Positions 19,258 through 22,323 of a DNA stretch of 64,000 nucleotides are shown here, in pieces. The notes under the pieces were generated by a model that ran no database searches, had not been told where the DNA came from, and saw only the letters and a program-made list of their open reading frames with translations. Made by a program: the position numbers and the translations under genes. Origin of the DNA: Alphaproteobacteria bacterium (GTDB taxonomy: Bacteria; Pseudomonadota; Alphaproteobacteria; ATCC43930; CGMCC-115725); assembly GCA_028871055.1 (NCBI GenBank), contig JAGWON010000001.1, positions 248,001 to 312,000 on the forward strand. The letters are read 5' to 3'. Position 1 is the first letter of the stretch, and every line of letters begins with the position of its first letter.

Positions 19258-20127
19258 ATGATCGTCTCGGCCAGCTATCGCACCGACATTCCGGCGTTCT
19301 ATCCCGGCTGGCTGATGGCGCGCCTCGCGGCCGGCTTTGCCCGGGTCAAGAGCCCCTATGGCGGCCGGTCGAGCACCATCGCGCTGCGGCCGGACGCGGT
19401 CGACGGTTTCGTCTTCTGGACCCGGAACGCGGCGCCGATGGCACCCCATTGGGAGCGGGTCCGGCGCGTCGCGCCCTTCTATCTCCAGTTCACTCTGACC
19501 GGCTATCCGCGCGCGCTCGAGGCCGGCACCTTGGCGCCGGCGGCGGCGCTCCGCCAGATGCGCAGTGTGGCCCGCCGCTTCGGCCCGCGCGCGGTGGTCT
19601 GGCGCTACGATCCGATCGTGCTGTCGACGGCGACGCCGCCCGACTGGCACGCGGCGAATTTCGCGCGTCTCGCGCGCGCGCTCGCCGCCACCGCCGACGA
19701 AGTCGTCGTCTCGTTCGTCCAACCCTATCGCAAGACGGTGCGCAATCTCGACGCGGCGGCGCACGCGCACGGCTTCGCCTGGCGCGATCCGAGCGACGAC
19801 GAGAAGCGCGACCTCATCGCGCGGCTCGTGCCGGTCGCGCAGGCGCGCGGCATGCGGTTGACGCTCTGCACCCAGCCGCAGCTCGTCGCCGCGGGCGCCG
19901 GCGAAGCGCGCTGCATCGACGCGGCGCGGCTCTCGGCCGTCGCTGGACGGCCGATCGCGGCACGCGAGAAGGGCAATCGTTTGGGCTGCCGCTGCGCCGA
20001 GAGCCGCGACATCGGCGCCTACGACAGCTGTGCCCAGGGCTGCGTCTATTGCTACGCGGTCGCCGATCGCGTCCGCGCCGCCGCGCAATTGAAACGCCAC
20101 GATCCGGCGGCGCCGGCGCTGGGTTGA
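19258..20127 (+). CDS. DUF1848 family protein with C-terminal cysteine cluster
   Basis: 289 residues from the Met in MIVSASYRTDIPAFYPGWLM, the usual N-terminus of DUF1848 proteins (the open frame runs further upstream but is unlike the family). The C-terminus holds C244-x-C246 and then C258-x3-C262-x2-C265 (DSCAQGCVYCYAV). The latter is spaced exactly like the radical-SAM iron-sulphur motif, but sits at the end of the protein instead of the beginning. A TIM-barrel-like pattern (VVWRYDPIVLS, VVVSFVQPYRKTV, LTLCTQPQL) fits an iron-sulphur enzyme, but its reaction is not known to me. Stand-alone gene, divergent from dnaK. Confidence 0.8.
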   Translation: MIVSASYRTDIPAFYPGWLMARLAAGFARVKSPYGGRSSTIALRPDAVDGFVFWTRNAAPMAPHWERVRRVAPFYLQFTLTGYPRALEAGTLAPAAALRQMRSVARRFGPRAVVWRYDPIVLSTATPPDWHAANFARLARALAATADEVVVSFVQPYRKTVRNLDAAAHAHGFAWRDPSDDEKRDLIARLVPVAQARGMRLTLCTQPQLVAAGAGEARCIDAARLSAVAGRPIAAREKGNRLGCRCAESRDIGAYDSCAQGCVYCYAVADRVRAAAQLKRHDPAAPALG

Positions 20128-20185
20128 GGCGGCGAGCGGGCTTCGGTGTCAAGATTAGCGACATTTCGAGCGCATTCGACTCAAG

Positions 20186-20202
20186 CTTTATTCTAAATAA
20201 AG
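20186..20202. promoter_or_regulatory. AT-rich inverted repeat before the PEP-CTERM/TPR gene
   Basis: CTTTATT-CTA-AATAAAG is a perfect 7-bp inverted repeat in a markedly AT-rich patch, 36 nt before the ATG of the next gene. It could be an operator or part of a promoter (TATTCT and TAAATA are -10-like). An AAGAAGGA run follows immediately but is too far from the ATG to be its ribosome site. Confidence 0.35.
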
Positions 20203-20238
20203 AAGGATTTAACGCGAGGCCCCTAGAGTTTTGGGCGC

Positions 20239-21642
20239 ATGAAACGCGCCCTTGTCATCGTTCTGCTCGCTTCGGGCTTGTCCGCCGCGCTGGCGCCGTC
20301 GTCGCGCGCCGCGCCGGTCGACGGCACTCTCCCGCTGAACGGCTTCGCCGCGATGCATGCGCCGAACGCCGGCGCTACGCTCGATCCGCTCGACGAGCCG
20401 GCGATGGACGCGTCGTCGATCGCCCGGGCCTGGCCGGCCGACGCCTACGGTATCGAAGGCATGCCCGCGACCTTCGGCCGGCCGACGCACGGTGCCGCGT
20501 TCGCGCCGGCCGCCGATTTCGAGGCGCTGTTGCGCGCGACCGCGGGTCGCGTGCCGCAGGCCGGGCCCGGCTTCGGCGGCAATCCCTATTTCGCGCTCGG
20601 CACCTGGGGCGGCGACGGTCGCGACATCGTCCATCGCGTGATCGCCGCCGATAACGGCCTCCATCCGTCCGACTACGCCGCCACCGGCTATGCCGTCGAG
20701 ATGAGCTTCAAGGGTTTTGCCGTGCGCGGCGGCGGCGCCGACGACGACGTCAAGCCGCTGGCGCCGTTCGACGGCGATCCCCTGTTCATTCCGAATCAAC
20801 TCGCCTTCTCGACCGGCACCAACGGTTCGAGCAGCGGCAGCGGCGTTACCGGCGGCACCACGCCCGGCGATAATGGTATCGGCACCGGCACCGGTGATAA
20901 CGGCGGTACCGGCGGTACCGGTTCCGGCGGCGATAGCGGCAGCGGCGCTGCCAATGGCAACGGAGTCGGCAATGGCGATCCCGGCGGCACCGCCGCCGGC
21001 CCGGTCGGCGCGCCGCGTCCAGTGCCCGAGCCGAGCGGCCTCGCGCTGCTGTTGATGGCGATTCCCGCGGTGTTGTTGATGAACCGCCGGCGCGCGCTGG
21101 CGCGCATCGCGGCGCCGGCCGCGGTGGCTGCGGCGGCGCTCATGTTCGCCCCCGGCGCCGCCCAGGCGCAGCTCCGCGACTGGGAGCAATTGTGCAACGG
21201 CACCGGCGGCGCCACGCCCGAGGTGATCGTCGAGGGCTGCTCAGCCGTCATCAAGTCCGACGACGAGAGCCTCAACAACGTTGCCATCGCCTACAACAAC
21301 CGCGGCAATGCGCTGCGCGAGCTCTCGCGCTTCGACGAAGCCGAGGCCGATTACGACAACGCGATCATCCTTGCGCCGAGCGATCCGTTTCCCTATCGCA
21401 ATCGCGGCGTAACCTACGGCCTGCTGGGCGATTACGCCCGCGCCCTCACCGATTTCAACCGCGCCATCACGCTTGCGCCGAAATACGCCTCGGCTTATCT
21501 CGGCCGCGCCTTCGCGCTCGAGCAGCTCGGCAATGCCCGCGCCGCCGCCGCCGATTTCGCGCGCGCCGCGCGTCTCGATCCGAAGCTGGTCGCCCAAGTG
21601 CGCGCGCCGCAGGCGGCGGCGCTGACGGAGTCGCCCCGCTAG
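20239..21642 (+). CDS. Secreted PEP-CTERM protein fused in frame to a TPR protein
   Basis: 467 residues in one frame. Residues 1-24 are a signal peptide (MKRALVIVLLASGLSAALAP). Residues 25-195 are an unrecognised secreted domain. Residues 196-255 are a Gly/Thr/Ser/Asn-rich linker. VPEP at 262-265, a hydrophobic helix and NRRR at 282-285 make a textbook PEP-CTERM (exosortase) sorting tail, normally the last residues of a protein. Here the frame continues into a second signal-peptide-like stretch (281-310, ending GAAQA before Q311) and then three TPR repeats (about 335-450). Met281 (ATG 21079) could start a separate 187-residue secreted TPR protein. No exosortase is in the window. Confidence 0.8.
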   Translation: MKRALVIVLLASGLSAALAPSSRAAPVDGTLPLNGFAAMHAPNAGATLDPLDEPAMDASSIARAWPADAYGIEGMPATFGRPTHGAAFAPAADFEALLRATAGRVPQAGPGFGGNPYFALGTWGGDGRDIVHRVIAADNGLHPSDYAATGYAVEMSFKGFAVRGGGADDDVKPLAPFDGDPLFIPNQLAFSTGTNGSSSGSGVTGGTTPGDNGIGTGTGDNGGTGGTGSGGDSGSGAANGNGVGNGDPGGTAAGPVGAPRPVPEPSGLALLLMAIPAVLLMNRRRALARIAAPAAVAAAALMFAPGAAQAQLRDWEQLCNGTGGATPEVIVEGCSAVIKSDDESLNNVAIAYNNRGNALRELSRFDEAEADYDNAIILAPSDPFPYRNRGVTYGLLGDYARALTDFNRAITLAPKYASAYLGRAFALEQLGNARAAAADFARAARLDPKLVAQVRAPQAAALTESPR

Positions 21643-21643
21643 G

Positions 21644-21730
21644 CTAGGGCTTCGCCGCGTACCAGATCGCGATCAGGACGCACCAGATCAACGCCGCGTA
21701 AACCAGGATCCACGCCAGTCGCGGGGGCAT
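21644..21730 (-). CDS. Possible 28-residue single-helix membrane peptide
   Basis: A short frame downstream of grpE on the same strand encodes a 28-residue peptide. It has a basic start (MPPRLAW), one hydrophobic helix (ILVYAALIWCVLIAIWY) and a short AAKP tail. The composition is that of small membrane proteins, and a hydrophobic run this long is not expected by chance. There is no good ribosome site, and the gap to the grpE stop is 23 nt, so it may be co-transcribed with hrcA-grpE. Conservation cannot be checked here. Confidence 0.35.
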   Translation of the reverse strand: MPPRLAWILVYAALIWCVLIAIWYAAKP

Positions 21731-21753
21731 CGCCGTCGATCTATCGCCGGCGC

Positions 21754-22323
21754 TCAGCCGGCGGGCGACGCCTCGGCCGTCGCCGCCTTGGCGACGCCGA
21801 CCAGCGCCGGCCGCAGCAGCCGGTCGTGCATGACGTAGCCCGGCTGCAGCACCTGGGCGATGGTGCCGGGGGGTTGATCGGAGCCCGGCACCTCGAACAT
21901 CGCCTCGTGCCGATTATGATCGAAGGGCTCGCCCAGCGCGGGTTCGACCCGTTTGATGCCGTGGCGCTCGAAGATCGCCAGCAGCTCGCGCTCGGTCGCG
22001 GCGACGCCCTCGATCACGCCGCGCGCGGTCGAATCGGCGCCGGGCACGGCGTCGATCGCGCGCCGCAGATTGTCGGCCACGTTCAAGAGCTCGCGCGCGA
22101 ATTCGAACGCGGCGTAGCGCTGCGCCTCCTGGCGGTCGCGCTGGTGGCGCTGGCGCTGGTTCTCGGTCTCGGCGAGCGCGCGCAGCAGCCGGTCCTTGGT
22201 CTCGGCCAGCTCGGCCTCGAGCCGGGCGACCGTTTCCTCGGGCCCGGCCGACGGCGCGGCCGGTTCGGGCGCCGTCGCGGGCTCGCCGTCGAAGGTCTTG
22301 TCGAATGCATCGTCGCCGTTCAT
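21754..22323 (-). CDS. grpE: Nucleotide exchange factor GrpE
   Basis: 189 residues. An acidic, Pro/Ala-rich N-terminus is followed by a long coiled coil (about 30-90) and the beta-wing domain with FDHNRHEAMFEVPGSDQPPGTI and the conserved VLQPGYVMHDRLLRPALVGV. It releases ADP from DnaK. It lies 4 nt after hrcA, the usual pairing, while dnaKJ is at a separate locus about 2.7 kb away. Confidence 0.96.
   Translation of the reverse strand: MNGDDAFDKTFDGEPATAPEPAAPSAGPEETVARLEAELAETKDRLLRALAETENQRQRHQRDRQEAQRYAAFEFARELLNVADNLRRAIDAVPGADSTARGVIEGVAATERELLAIFERHGIKRVEPALGEPFDHNRHEAMFEVPGSDQPPGTIAQVLQPGYVMHDRLLRPALVGVAKAATAEASPAG

Follow-up and report, generated by a model that had tools for sequence, protein, structure and literature searches.

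An in-frame fusion of a PEP-CTERM protein to an exported TPR protein is conserved in three species of one alphaproteobacterial genus

The gene for a PEP-CTERM surface protein and the gene for an exported TPR protein appear to have been joined in frame, and the joined gene is conserved in three species; at the level of sequence, the fused pair is established. In the window (the whole stretch of 64,000 nucleotides that was analysed), the fused gene occupies 20239..21642 on the forward (+) strand as a single uninterrupted frame of 467 aa plus stop, running from an ATG start to a TAG stop, and it has full-length orthologues in two other genomes of the same genus, G001 and G002 (G000 denotes the window's own genome and G003 a further genome of the genus). 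The frame encodes, in order, a signal peptide, an N-terminal domain, a Gly-rich linker, a PEP-CTERM tail, a second signal-peptide-like segment, and a TPR domain. It is a plausible reading, in which we place evenly balanced confidence, that the product of this gene undergoes two cuts, one by signal peptidase I after an AQA motif and one at the PEP motif by exosortase.

The N-terminal signal peptide (residues 1–24; 20239..20310, +), which ends at a putative cut site, contains a hydrophobic window at residues 1–21 and could be aligned in the three species; since an N-terminal hydrophobic window is present in all three orthologues, each begins as PEP-CTERM proteins do, with a signal peptide. It is followed by the N-terminal domain (residues 26–186; 20314..20796, +) and by the Gly-rich linker, delimited from the sequence and the alignment (residues 187–261; 20797..21021, +). 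The internal PEP-CTERM comprises residues 262–285 (VPEP, helix, and RRR; 21022..21093, +), the internal signal-peptide segment residues 286–310, with the c-region PGAAQA (21094..21168, +), and the TPR half, predicted to be periplasmic, residues 311–467 (21169..21639, +). Hydrophobic windows of the fused protein lie at residues 264–283 and 286–308, with Met281 and the NRRR cluster (282–285) close by. A sequence-only reading of this DNA had pointed to a PEP-CTERM signal in the middle of a protein (VPEP at 262–265, helix, NRRR) and to a frame that continues without a stop through a second signal-peptide-like segment ending in AQA to TPR repeats. Both features were seen in the frame, the former with a TIGR02595 match over the cut-off and the latter in the two orthologues as well.

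The internal PEP-CTERM, VPEPSGLALLLMAIPAVLLMNRRR, matched TIGR02595 over residues 262–285 with 18.7 bits against a cut-off of 16 (E = 0.0023), and all three orthologues scored over this curated cut-off (18.7, 24.8, and 16.3 bits). PF07589, the Pfam PEP-CTERM model, was not listed for the window's own fused protein at E up to 1. An order-wide TIGR02595 search (E up to 0.05) returned 122 matches in 18 of 43 genomes, in which the fused tail of G000 scored 24.0 bits and ranked third of the five tails of its genome, that of G001 27.8 bits (third of six), and that of G002 20.3 bits (fourth of five). By this profile, the fused tails fall inside the score range of ordinary tails from the same genomes. 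Their position is not terminal: 182, 183, and 183 residues follow the tail in the three fused orthologues. For the 121 of the 122 frames that have a visible stop (G005:C77 runs off its contig and was left out), the number of residues past the matched tail had a median of 6, with fewer than 10 in 83 frames, at least 40 in nine, and at least 100 in three. These last three are all fused orthologues, in keeping with the earlier remark that the arrangement would be unusual, and on visual inspection the six matches with 45–74 trailing residues resemble cases of a lost stop or a frame error. A passage in Haft et al. (2006, PMC1569441) states that PEP-CTERM regions lie close to the C-terminus virtually without exception, and gives fewer than 10 residues past the modelled region for 87% of the proteins, with a median of three; background on tripartite tails is provided by PMC11980579. 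No internal PEP-CTERM was described in the titles and abstract openings listed in the literature searches. The genus also encodes very short PEP-CTERM proteins in frames of 69–97 aa (L033, L096, L098, L115, and L156), whose tails, such as VPEPSTLALLGVAIPGAAAWIKHR, have an AIP or VIP element in common with the tail of the fused protein.

In a search of 61 genomes, the window's own included, near full-length matches to the fused protein were obtained in G001 (residues 1–460, 65% identity) and G002 (residues 3–465, 64% identity). The frames of both (L003 and L004, respectively) have no stops and the same architecture, and in both genomes the fused gene sits between dnaK and grpE. At the window's own locus, a DUF1848 gene lies upstream on the same strand, followed by opposite-strand genes that we take to be dnaK and dnaJ, and the downstream genes, also on the opposite strand, are presumably grpE and hrcA. 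The first half had no match in G003, in which the dnaK–grpE interval retains just a small piece of the upstream region. The DUF1848 gene beside dnaK gave short remnant matches in G003 (L077:3554-3810, G003:C61) and G002 (L087:3302-3807, G002:C34), and most of it was matched in G001, G009, and G010. The idea of a fused gene pair, one of three raised by the sequence-only reading, is thus borne out by a frame kept in three of the four searched genomes of the genus and by stand-alone paralogues of the second half that have signal peptides of their own.

Codon comparisons among the three species gave dN/dS values of 0.13–0.27 for the junction (residues 261–311), 0.58–0.78 for the N-terminal domain, and 0.20–0.35 for the TPR part; these were computed by the Nei–Gojobori method on short stretches and are rough values. 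Differences within residues 261–311 amounted to 0.39–0.57 at third codon positions versus 0.06–0.16 at second positions. VPEPSGL, RRR, P305, G306, A308, A310, and Q311 are invariant in the three species, and the linker before VPEPSGL varies. Judged by these comparisons, the junction is under purifying selection, and the fusion is kept and is not a missed stop.

The second signal-peptide-like segment ends in PGAAQA followed by QL, placing AQA at residues 308–310 and a putative cut between residues 310 and 311. At this candidate signal peptidase I site, Pro-Gly at −6/−5, Ala at −3 and −1, and Gln at +1 are invariant, and position −2 varies (Q, K, and K), a pattern that is usual for signal peptidase I sites. 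The segment has the other marks of a signal peptide, namely invariant R283–R285 and R289 as a positive n-region, a hydrophobic core, a helix breaker, and small residues at −3 and −1, and it starts about 285 residues into the frame, not at the precursor's N-terminus. The genus also encodes TPR proteins that stand alone and have a normal signal peptide. We examined 15 such loci, each with a TPR frame, and aligned seven of them with the second half; the start Met was picked by eye, and the junction alignment is short. These seven paralogues showed 28–38% identity to the second half, with homology that includes the signal peptides. The start Met of the paralogues aligned with Leu287 (codons CTG, CTG, and CTC in the three species). 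Because the paralogues start at Leu287, the former gene boundary probably lay somewhere around Arg285–Leu287, a position that can be given only approximately, with the basic end of the tail directly before the signal peptide. In the TPR half, TPR models matched within residues 349–450 (TPR_1, E = 2.1e-21 for the protein), and this half was the sole confident region of the full-length structural model, with a pLDDT of 74–88 per ten-residue block over residues 331–450.

A check for separate homologues of the two halves, suggested by the sequence-only reading, had a divided outcome: stand-alone exported TPR genes exist, and the searches yielded no separate relative of the first half. The N-terminal domain, which is fast evolving and restricted to the genus, matched nothing in Pfam at E up to 5 or in a PDB sequence search at E up to 1. 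Its relatives in the order were confined to three of 43 genomes, all of them the fused ones, with no stand-alone homologue. With at most eight candidates scored per genome, relatives were found in the own genome only among the 385 of the class sample, and in the own genome plus one match at 20.8 bits in the phylum sample of 398. The latter match, in an 845-aa frame whose product resembles an RNA helicase, was rejected as a chance match with a gappy alignment. Structure prediction was unreliable for this domain, with blocks of about 20–33 pLDDT in the full-length model and a mean of 29.5 when it was modelled alone. By these searches, the first half is an orphan domain.

Exosortase, the presence of which had likewise been proposed as a check, was represented by one match in the own genome. 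G001 and G002 also have one match each and G003 has none; in all, six of the ten relatives searched have one. The own exosortase frame at L001 (G000:C3:29468-33214) extends beyond the match into an EpsI-like region, and its neighbours resemble genes for a glycosyltransferase and a flippase, an arrangement seen in exopolysaccharide loci. The joint absence of the fused gene and of an exosortase match from G003 fits a link between the two, but this genome still encodes one VPEP protein (L102). Because of this retained protein, the co-occurrence of the fused gene and exosortase is weak evidence, and the enzyme gene may merely be absent from the G003 assembly.

The fused gene is preceded by a conserved leader (20160..20238, +) that includes AAATAAAGAAGGATTTAA at 20195–20212. 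Sixty of the 79 leader bases are invariant in the three species, whereas the corresponding counts are 770 of 1401 for the coding part and 230 of 306 for the TPR part, so that the leader is about as conserved as the latter. With up to three mismatches allowed, AAATAAAGAAGGATTTAA was found once each in G000, G001, and G002, at the leader only, and was absent from G003; its reversed control pattern occurred once, in G001. Rfam searches at E up to 5 gave three matches, all far under the gathering scores, and a sigma-70 promoter scan of 20000–21800 found none.

A polyprotein that is cut twice, also among the three options of the sequence-only reading, is the leading reading of these data in view of the conservation of both signals and the presence of an exosortase. 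Export would begin at the first signal peptide, and the PEP-CTERM helix would then lodge in the membrane, leaving the Arg-rich loop on the inner side. Export would resume at the second hydrophobic segment, so that the chain would form a hairpin and the two domains would both come to lie beyond the inner membrane; the Arg cluster that closes the PEP-CTERM tail would double as the positive n-region of the next signal peptide, with nearly no spacer between the two. Signal peptidase I would cut after residue 310 and free the TPR domain, exosortase would cut at the PEP motif and sort the N-terminal domain, and the outcome would be two mature proteins in a fixed 1:1 ratio. The ordinary scores of the fused tails, the purifying selection at the junction, and the homology through the signal peptides of the paralogues also speak for this reading. 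Points against it are the missing PF07589 match, the published suggestion on long-tailed copies cited below, the suitability of conserved hydrophobic segments for an uncut hairpin, and the confinement of the fused gene to three genomes of one genus, at least two of them metagenome assemblies. The more specific proposal, that the internal PEP-CTERM is still a substrate of exosortase while sharing its Arg cluster, and that exosortase and signal peptidase I together yield two exported proteins in a fixed ratio, is put forward somewhat more tentatively.

The same hairpin might instead be permanent: an uncut membrane protein would hold the N-terminal and TPR domains in the periplasm, and the PEP motif would be a relic. 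The two hydrophobic windows and the intervening Arg-rich loop are present in all three species, and conserved hydrophobic segments suit such a topology; moreover, a passage in Haft et al. (2006, PMC1569441) suggests that PEP-CTERM copies whose tails are much longer are possibly not functional. We nevertheless consider a permanent hairpin doubtful, as VPEPSGL is invariant beside a variable linker, P305, G306, A308, and A310 fit the signal peptidase I pattern, and the second segment aligns with the cleavable-type signal peptides of the paralogues. About as doubtful is a product cut after AQA only, in which the TPR domain would be freed, while the tail with the leftover second helix would be no substrate for exosortase, leaving the N-terminal domain anchored in the inner membrane. 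The conserved signal peptidase pattern speaks for such a single cut, as does the near-invariable C-terminal position of PEP-CTERM regions stated in the passage of PMC1569441 cited above. The PEP motif and the basic cluster have been kept, however, with dN/dS values of 0.20 and 0.07 over residues 261–285 in the two of three species pairs that were computable.

The second half could also be translated on its own, with initiation at about residues 271–281 inside the frame, and such a nested gene could coexist with the fusion product. Potential ATG, GTG, or TTG starts occur there in every species, and five positions within residues 257–313 carry one in two of the three species. Pairing of internal candidates with the 16S tail ranged from −1.7 to −4.8 kcal/mol within residues 271–281, the latter value at codons 277 and 278 of G001 (window numbering), and reached −5.1 kcal/mol at residue 302. 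The main start paired at just −2.4 kcal/mol in G000 and G001 and at −6.6 kcal/mol in G002; leader strength therefore does not favour the main start in the former two genomes, and the Shine–Dalgarno check leaves the nested start undecided because in two of the three species the main start does not outscore several internal candidates. However, no position within residues 257–313 has a start codon common to all three species, and the start of the paralogues falls on Leu287, which together make a nested start improbable, well below the two preceding alternatives. Met281 in particular (21079..21081, +), which the sequence-only reading had offered as an independent start, did not hold up, since its codon is ATG in one species, TTG in another, and ATC in the third, and a nested gene from this residue is unlikely; ribosomes from the first start would in any case meet no stop and make the fusion. 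An assembly or sequencing artefact, with a missed stop or a frameshift at the junction, has a negligible probability: G001 and G002 are metagenome assemblies, but the assemblies of the three species agree in frame, and the codon-position differences show translation across the junction. The sequence-only reading had named a missed stop, or homologues always encoded by separate genes, as grounds for abandoning the fusion, and the orthologues instead carry it intact.

We also searched for similar junctions elsewhere. A four-row model of the junction gave 15 matches in 10 of 397 phylum genomes, with at most 16 candidates scored per genome; model positions 1–60 were matched in the own genome only, and the other 14 matches end at or before position 39, in the PEP-CTERM part. 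Because fusions to an unrelated signal peptide would escape this model, the absence of the junction elsewhere is only weakly shown. In another genus, L203:1471-3685 (G025:C407) encodes a PF00174 PEP-CTERM protein followed in frame by a signal-peptide-like segment, a DNRLRE-like start, and a stop. Its tail scored 18.8 bits with TIGR02595 and 20.6 bits with PF07589 (against a cut-off of 20.7), and the remainder lies in another frame (NF033679, 58.7 bits). The first protein of L203 has matches in 12 of 39 genomes of the family; among the matches listed elsewhere, two pass residue 388, in G034:C271 (to residue 414) and G061:C419 (a short match, 361–390), each with an internal stop. L203 may be a fusion in decay, a pair of overlapping genes, or the result of a sequencing error. 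It hints that tail-to-head joining may recur where a PEP-CTERM gene lies ahead of a gene whose product is exported.

Exosortase is still little characterised, and an internal tail would offer a direct handle on it: a conserved internal PEP-CTERM would test the need of this enzyme for a free C-terminus behind the helix. If true, the two-cut reading would add a further case of a single bacterial precursor that gives rise to two exported proteins, which would be unusual in bacteria.

The fused protein shares with the PEP-CTERM/exosortase system (EpsH, XrtA; TIGR02595, PF09721) the signal peptide, VPEP motif, helix, and Arg cluster, a fast-evolving exported domain, and an exosortase in the genome; unlike in that system, its tail is internal, with 182–183 residues past it. 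It resembles the exported TPR proteins of the genus (such as L062, L067, and L074) in combining a signal peptide with TPR repeats, whereas those proteins are encoded by separate genes with their own start and the signal peptide of the fused protein is internal. FbcH of Bradyrhizobium japonicum is reportedly a cytochrome b/c1 precursor that is cut at an internal signal sequence. FbcH is likewise one bacterial gene with an internal signal sequence and two products, but these are respiratory subunits and are not known to involve a C-terminal sorting tail or an exosortase. Passages in PMC5837995, PMC6256036, and PMC11833123, the last on a bipartite protein that a different protease cleaves, have no bearing on the fused gene. 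Viral polyproteins processed by the host signal peptidase similarly use internal signal peptides to restart translocation past a membrane helix; they depend, in contrast, on the eukaryotic signal peptidase complex, and we claim no kinship between them and the fused protein.
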